From Phocaeicola abscessus CCUG 55929 (GTDB lineage: Bacteria > Bacteroidota > Bacteroidia > Bacteroidales > Bacteroidaceae): a stretch of DNA of 64,000 nt. Below, piece after piece: positions 58,372 to 58,603 of the stretch. Below the pieces are notes generated by a model. The model worked only from the letters and a program-made list of their open reading frames with translations. It searched no databases and had not been told where the DNA came from. Location of the stretch: NCBI RefSeq assembly GCF_000312445.1, contig NZ_HE997182.1:124001-188000 (forward strand), given 5' to 3'. The position numbers and the translations under genes were made by a program. The stretch's first letter is position 1. Each line of letters opens with the position of its first letter.

Positions 58372-58403
58372 GTTGCTGATCCTACAAAAAGGTTTTATCT
58401 TTG
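58372..58403 (+). promoter_or_regulatory. Promoter of the tRNA locus
   Basis: GTTG (58372-58375), 20 nt, then TATCTTTG (58396-58403), an exact -7 box. The inferred start, near 58410, is about 11 nt before the degraded tRNA-Gly and so would transcribe both it and tRNA-Leu. Confidence 0.65.
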
Positions 58404-58420: not shown

Positions 58421-58494
58421 GCGGAAACAGCTCAGCGAGTAGAACACCACCCTGTCTAAGAGCGGGAGTGCGAGTTCGAGTCTCGTTTTCCGCT
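58421..58494 (+). pseudogene. Degraded tRNA-Gly (pseudo-tRNA)
   Basis: The acceptor stem (GCGGAAA with TTTCCGC) is perfect, and the T arm (GCGAG-TTCGAGT-CTCGT) is intact with one G-T pair. Both look like bacterial tRNA-Gly. The remainder is damaged: U8 is C, invariant G18 is A, the D stem has a C-A mismatch, and the anticodon stem (CCACC against AGAGC) cannot pair. The loop reads CTGTCTA, which would be a GUC anticodon if it folded. No CCA is encoded. I judge it non-functional in translation. Confidence 0.65.
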
Positions 58495-58509: not shown

Positions 58510-58594
58510 GCTCGAATGGTGAAATCGGTAGACACGAGGGACTTAAAATCCCTTGGGCATTGCGCCTGTGCGGGTTCAAGTCCCGCTTCGAGTA
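58510..58594 (+). tRNA. tRNA-Leu (anticodon UAA)
   Basis: An 85-nt class II tRNA. The acceptor GCTCGAA (58510-58516) pairs with TTCGAGT (58587-58593), with one G-T pair at the end. The anticodon stem AGGGA/TCCCT encloses CTTAAAA with anticodon TAA at 58544-58546. A long variable arm (GGGC-ATT-GCGCC) and the T arm GCGGG-TTCAAGT-CCCGC follow. It has the size and variable arm expected of leucine tRNAs. It reads UUA/UUG codons. CCA is not encoded. Confidence 0.95.
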
Positions 58595-58603
58595 CATCCC
58601 ACA

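Follow-up and report, generated by a model that had tools for sequence, protein, structure and literature searches.

The window analysed here is a 64,000-base stretch of the genome of Phocaeicola abscessus CCUG 55929 (bases 124001-188000 of contig C1, which is 1,004,446 bases long). The source genome (label G000) is a draft of 2.54 Mb in 14 contigs, 85.47% complete. At 58421-58494 lies the remnant of a tRNA-Gly(GCC) gene; after a further 15 bases an intact tRNA-Leu(UAA) gene begins. Here, we report the features of this locus, its state in related genomes, and the most probable origin of the remnant. The features are as follows.

58372-58403, forward strand: predicted Bacteroidales-type promoter motif, consisting of GTTG (58372-58375), a 20-base spacer and TATCTTTG (58396-58403); assigned from the sequence, the congeners and the consensus in PMC7366714.
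58421-58494, forward strand: probable tRNA-Gly(GCC) pseudogene (Rfam, 32.5 bits; no ARAGORN call; changes in alignment; intact orthologs).
58421-58427, forward strand: 5' half of the acceptor stem, unchanged in alignment with the intact paralog.
58428-58469, forward strand: decayed body in the same alignment, comprising position 8, the D arm, the anticodon arm (longer by one base) and the variable loop.
58470-58494, forward strand: T arm, 3' half of the acceptor stem and position 73, unchanged in the same alignment.
58510-58595, forward strand: intact tRNA-Leu(UAA) (ARAGORN; Rfam, 58.9 bits; genome survey), the one gene found with this anticodon.

ARAGORN, run on the whole window, called only tRNA-Leu(taa) at 58510-58595 and left 58421-58494 uncalled. 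The Rfam tRNA model (RF00005; gathering score, 29) gave the remnant 32.5 bits, versus 69.6 bits for each of three intact tRNA-Gly(GCC) genes, identical in sequence, that lie on contig C3, and a preliminary description of the window, which had proposed a degraded tRNA-Gly ahead of tRNA-Leu, was thereby borne out. A genome search with the tRNA family returned 49 matches, among which the remnant scored lowest. The three intact genes cluster with tRNA-Leu(CAG) and tRNA-Leu(GAG), and the count of intact tRNA-Gly genes, for which that description had called, is completed by one tRNA-Gly(UCC) and one tRNA-Gly(CCC). The function of the damaged copy is thus covered by three other genes. For tRNA-Leu(UAA), one copy was found, although at about 85% completeness another could be missing. 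Positions 10-14 of the tRNA-Leu(UAA) gene read GTGAA here and GTGGA in the other 50 genus genomes read.

Changes in the remnant were scored against the intact tRNA-Gly(GCC) found elsewhere in the genome. A gapped alignment gave 10 substitutions and 3 single-base insertions or deletions, and an alternative alignment with a single inserted base gave 13 substitutions; whichever is used, every change lies within positions 8-48. The changed positions are 8 (T to C), 16, 17, 18 (G to A), 24, 28, 32, 36, 40 and 41; the variable loop is also altered, and the anticodon loop has gained one base. All 7 acceptor pairs and all 5 T-stem pairs (12 of 12) are kept and the T loop is unchanged, as are 3 of 4 D-stem pairs and 2 of 5 anticodon-stem pairs. 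The intact acceptor and T arms and the damage at invariant positions 8 and 18 and in the anticodon arm had all been described correctly; the reported damage to the D stem is real but slight, amounting to one broken pair. With three of five stem pairs broken and an extra loop base, the remnant lacks the paired anticodon stem, seven-base loop and glycine anticodon of a functional tRNA-Gly. Its acceptor stem, with G1-C72 and U73, does correspond to that of a functional gene. Bacterial glycine identity elements (PMC9976931) include G1-C72, G10, C50-G64, U73, U16 and C36; the remnant keeps the first four and has lost U16 and C36.

Two further readings of the altered body were considered and set aside. 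A new RNA fold is not indicated, because the fold stability of the remnant relative to shuffled sequences (z, −2.68 for 58421-58493) is near that of the intact copies (z, −2.39); the predicted fold of the remnant contains no cloverleaf, but that of the intact copy likewise lacks an exact one, so this prediction is little informative. The anticodon region recalls tRNA-Asp(GUC) by eye, suggesting a chimera with another tRNA; however, among the tRNAs called by ARAGORN in the loci fetched from this genome, the one that aligned best with the central part of the remnant was its own tRNA-Gly(GCC), and a chimera is thus unsupported.

The consensus of Bacteroidales-type promoters is TTTG at −33 and TAnnTTTG at −7 (PMC7366714). 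The −7 element of the locus fits exactly, and the −33 element, 20 bases upstream, reads GTTG, with one mismatch. A scan of 48 other genomes of the genus showed an exact TTTG 19 to 21 bases before TAnnTTTG in 47 of them (the exception being G075). The earlier statement that a strong promoter still drives the locus therefore holds insofar as the predicted motif is kept, with an exact −7 element; it overstates the −33 element, which is imperfect. Since the motif is shared with tRNA-Leu(UAA), for which the genome survey gave one copy, its retention needs no special explanation and would follow from the need for that tRNA.

Orthologous loci, a comparison also called for in the preliminary description, were sought in 61 genomes of the genus; at the cut-off used, 52 matched and 9 did not. 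tRNA-Gly(GCC) is intact at the locus in 48 of the 61, decayed in two (G000 and G014), and cut by a contig end in two (G028 and G082). Among the 48 intact copies, 47 stand directly before tRNA-Leu(UAA), and in G032 the contig ends inside tRNA-Leu. The remnant is thus a disrupted copy of a gene whose orthologs are mostly intact, and formerly it would have opened a tRNA-Gly–tRNA-Leu(UAA) operon common in the genus. The changed body is unique to G000 among the 52 matched genomes (50 judgeable), so the conservation expected of a non-translational pseudo-tRNA was not seen. The best match to the locus among other genomes is G025; by argH, the nearest of ten loci compared are G025, G076 and G083 (81 to 83% protein identity), and because all three are intact the loss most likely occurred in the line of this genome. 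The remnant and its paralogs differ at no more than 13 of 73 sites, and the neighbouring argH differs from that of G025 at 107 of 142 fourfold sites; the decay is therefore younger than the G025 split, which helps account for the clean stretches.

Two pattern scans complete this comparison. A scan of genome contigs for the Gly-Leu junction, which favours intact Gly 3' ends and may omit the window's own genome, gave 84 loci, comprising 79 whole Gly genes (0 to 4 differences from one common sequence), 3 loci with runs of N and 2 cut by contig ends. The exact 28-base pattern of the changed sequence had no match in viral contigs, a collection where little was expected.

In G014 (G014:C34; loci L030 and L146), the same tRNA-Gly copy has decayed separately, with changes in the acceptor, D, anticodon and T regions alike. 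Compared with the intact gene of its relative G013, it carries 20 substitutions and several insertions or deletions, and 9 of the 20 substitutions lie outside positions 8-48. Rfam, run up to E=1, reported no tRNA at the Gly position of this locus, and the tRNA-Leu behind it is intact (59.1 bits).

Beyond the genus, at least 180 of 201 sampled genomes of the family matched, and 20 loci were fetched, chosen for partial query coverage (a selected set that gives no rate). Eight carry an intact but diverged tRNA-Gly, one is cut by a contig end and 11 have no tRNA-Gly. In these 11 loci, from eight genera, tRNA-Leu(UAA) is present, and in the upstream bases examined (102 in one locus, 190 in the others) ARAGORN called no tRNA-Gly and no remnant was detectable. 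When the upstream sequence was compared with tRNA-Gly, 17 to 192 of 200 shuffles reached the real score in the 11 loci, versus 0 of 200 for G000 and 0 of 200 for G014. tRNA-Leu(UAA) can thus stand without tRNA-Gly. Locus L222, among the 11, carries a tRNA-Met at a greater distance upstream. A second tRNA-Leu(UAA) in G060 (L201; G060:C111) is not preceded by tRNA-Gly, and TAnnTTTG was not found ahead of it. In eight family genomes (L205-L212), tRNA-Gly(GCC) precedes tRNA-Leu(UAA) with an acceptor stem (GCGAAAG/CTTTCGC) and T stem that differ from those of the genus, pairing being kept. In L147, positions 85-145 gave a weak fluoride-riboswitch-like match (21.2 bits; gathering score, 34).

Taken together, the remnant is very probably a redundant tRNA-Gly(GCC) pseudogene of fairly recent origin, with a promoter kept for tRNA-Leu(UAA). 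Recent decay was one of the options offered in the preliminary description, and it agrees with the intact orthologs, the three intact copies in the genome and the separate loss of the same copy in G014. A spare Gly copy freed from selection would have gathered substitutions in its D and anticodon arms, and transcription would persist through the shared promoter, which tRNA-Leu(UAA) needs. RNase P (ribonuclease P) forms the 5' end of tRNAs and releases the 5' leader. Its cut at the 5' end of tRNA-Leu would remove the Gly part along with that leader. The clean acceptor and T arms would reflect fairly recent decay, possibly aided either by gene conversion from the paralogs or by mild selection against precursors that mature poorly; here the two would look the same.

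Several points weigh against this reading. The acceptor and T arms (32 positions) carry no change, and under random placement an unchanged block of the observed length or longer has a P value of 0.0047 (10 substitutions) or 0.0048 (13 substitutions), values that are optimistic because the pattern was noticed before testing; the test treats the two ends of the gene as joined. This clustering is a weak hint of some remaining constraint on the ends. In G014, too, the acceptor stem keeps the capacity for 6 of its 7 pairs, with G-U at two, and the comparison rests on one isolate of the host species. Residual processing of the remnant, or a role confined to the host species, is thus conceivable, the one point in its favour being the clustering of changes.

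The remnant might instead be kept as a processing handle, its acceptor/T domain still being cut by RNase P and 3'-end enzymes and so aiding the release of tRNA-Leu. The unchanged acceptor and T pairs and T loop, with all substitutions placed elsewhere, would suit such a role, as would the pairs that can still form in G014 (3 of 5 in the T stem in the alignment used). In G014, however, the ends are changed, two of five T-stem pairs are lost and no tRNA is reported by Rfam, yet tRNA-Leu is intact; a tRNA-Gly is also wanting in front of tRNA-Leu(UAA) in 11 of the 20 fetched family loci and in front of the second tRNA-Leu(UAA) of G060, so that an intact domain is not a constant of the relatives. 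From these Gly-less relatives it follows that the Gly gene is dispensable and no required handle. As judged from these sequences, a general handle role, for which the preliminary description had allowed, appears contradicted by the Gly-less relatives and is weakened by G014, and we regard a handle as unlikely. A tRNA-like RNA that has taken on a function unrelated to translation, comparable to the pseudo-tRNA of Bacillus cereus, is very unlikely: the −7 element persists, both ends are free of changes and some glycine identity elements remain (PMC9976931), but the changed body was seen in this genome only, the identity bases U16 and C36 are gone, tRNA-Leu accounts for the promoter, and the fold is about as stable as that of the intact copy. 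Similarly slim is the chance that the acceptor/T domain is cut out, receives CCA and persists as a minihelix-like, non-decoding RNA, perhaps weakly glycylated; if true, such an RNA could serve as a decoy or donate glycine to processes other than translation. It is hardly credible that this is a working gene with an assembly or sequencing error. The genome is a 14-contig draft, and the changed sequence had no second copy found, the collection scanned with it being viral contigs; but at least 10 substitutions in 41 bases beside an intact tRNA-Leu would be an unusual error pattern, and the locus lies well inside its contig.

Read as a pseudogene, the remnant is of little importance in itself: a Gly-Leu tRNA operon can lose its leading gene to decay and keep the second, and this has happened twice, separately, in one genus. 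The remnant does clear the Rfam tRNA cut-off, however, and tRNA gene counts made by the cut-off alone would include it.

Redundant tRNA genes decay to pseudogenes in bacterial genomes. Our literature search found no close example of such decay, and a search on Bacteroides found no paper joining tRNA-Gly, tRNA-Leu and pseudogene. The remnant resembles redundant bacterial tRNA pseudogenes in being an extra isoacceptor copy with intact paralogs, in the retention of the neighbouring tRNA and in loss in separate lineages; no defining difference separates it from them, although its two ends are unusually clean. As with tRNA-Other of Bacillus cereus (PMC3399842), no part in translation is expected of this tRNA-like gene; unlike tRNA-Other, it is known from one genome and by its sequence. 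It shares its gene order with the intact tRNA-Gly(GCC)–tRNA-Leu(UAA) pair found in Phocaeicola and Bacteroides, and its promoter type with the genomes of its genus, but the Gly gene that is intact in those pairs is decayed here.
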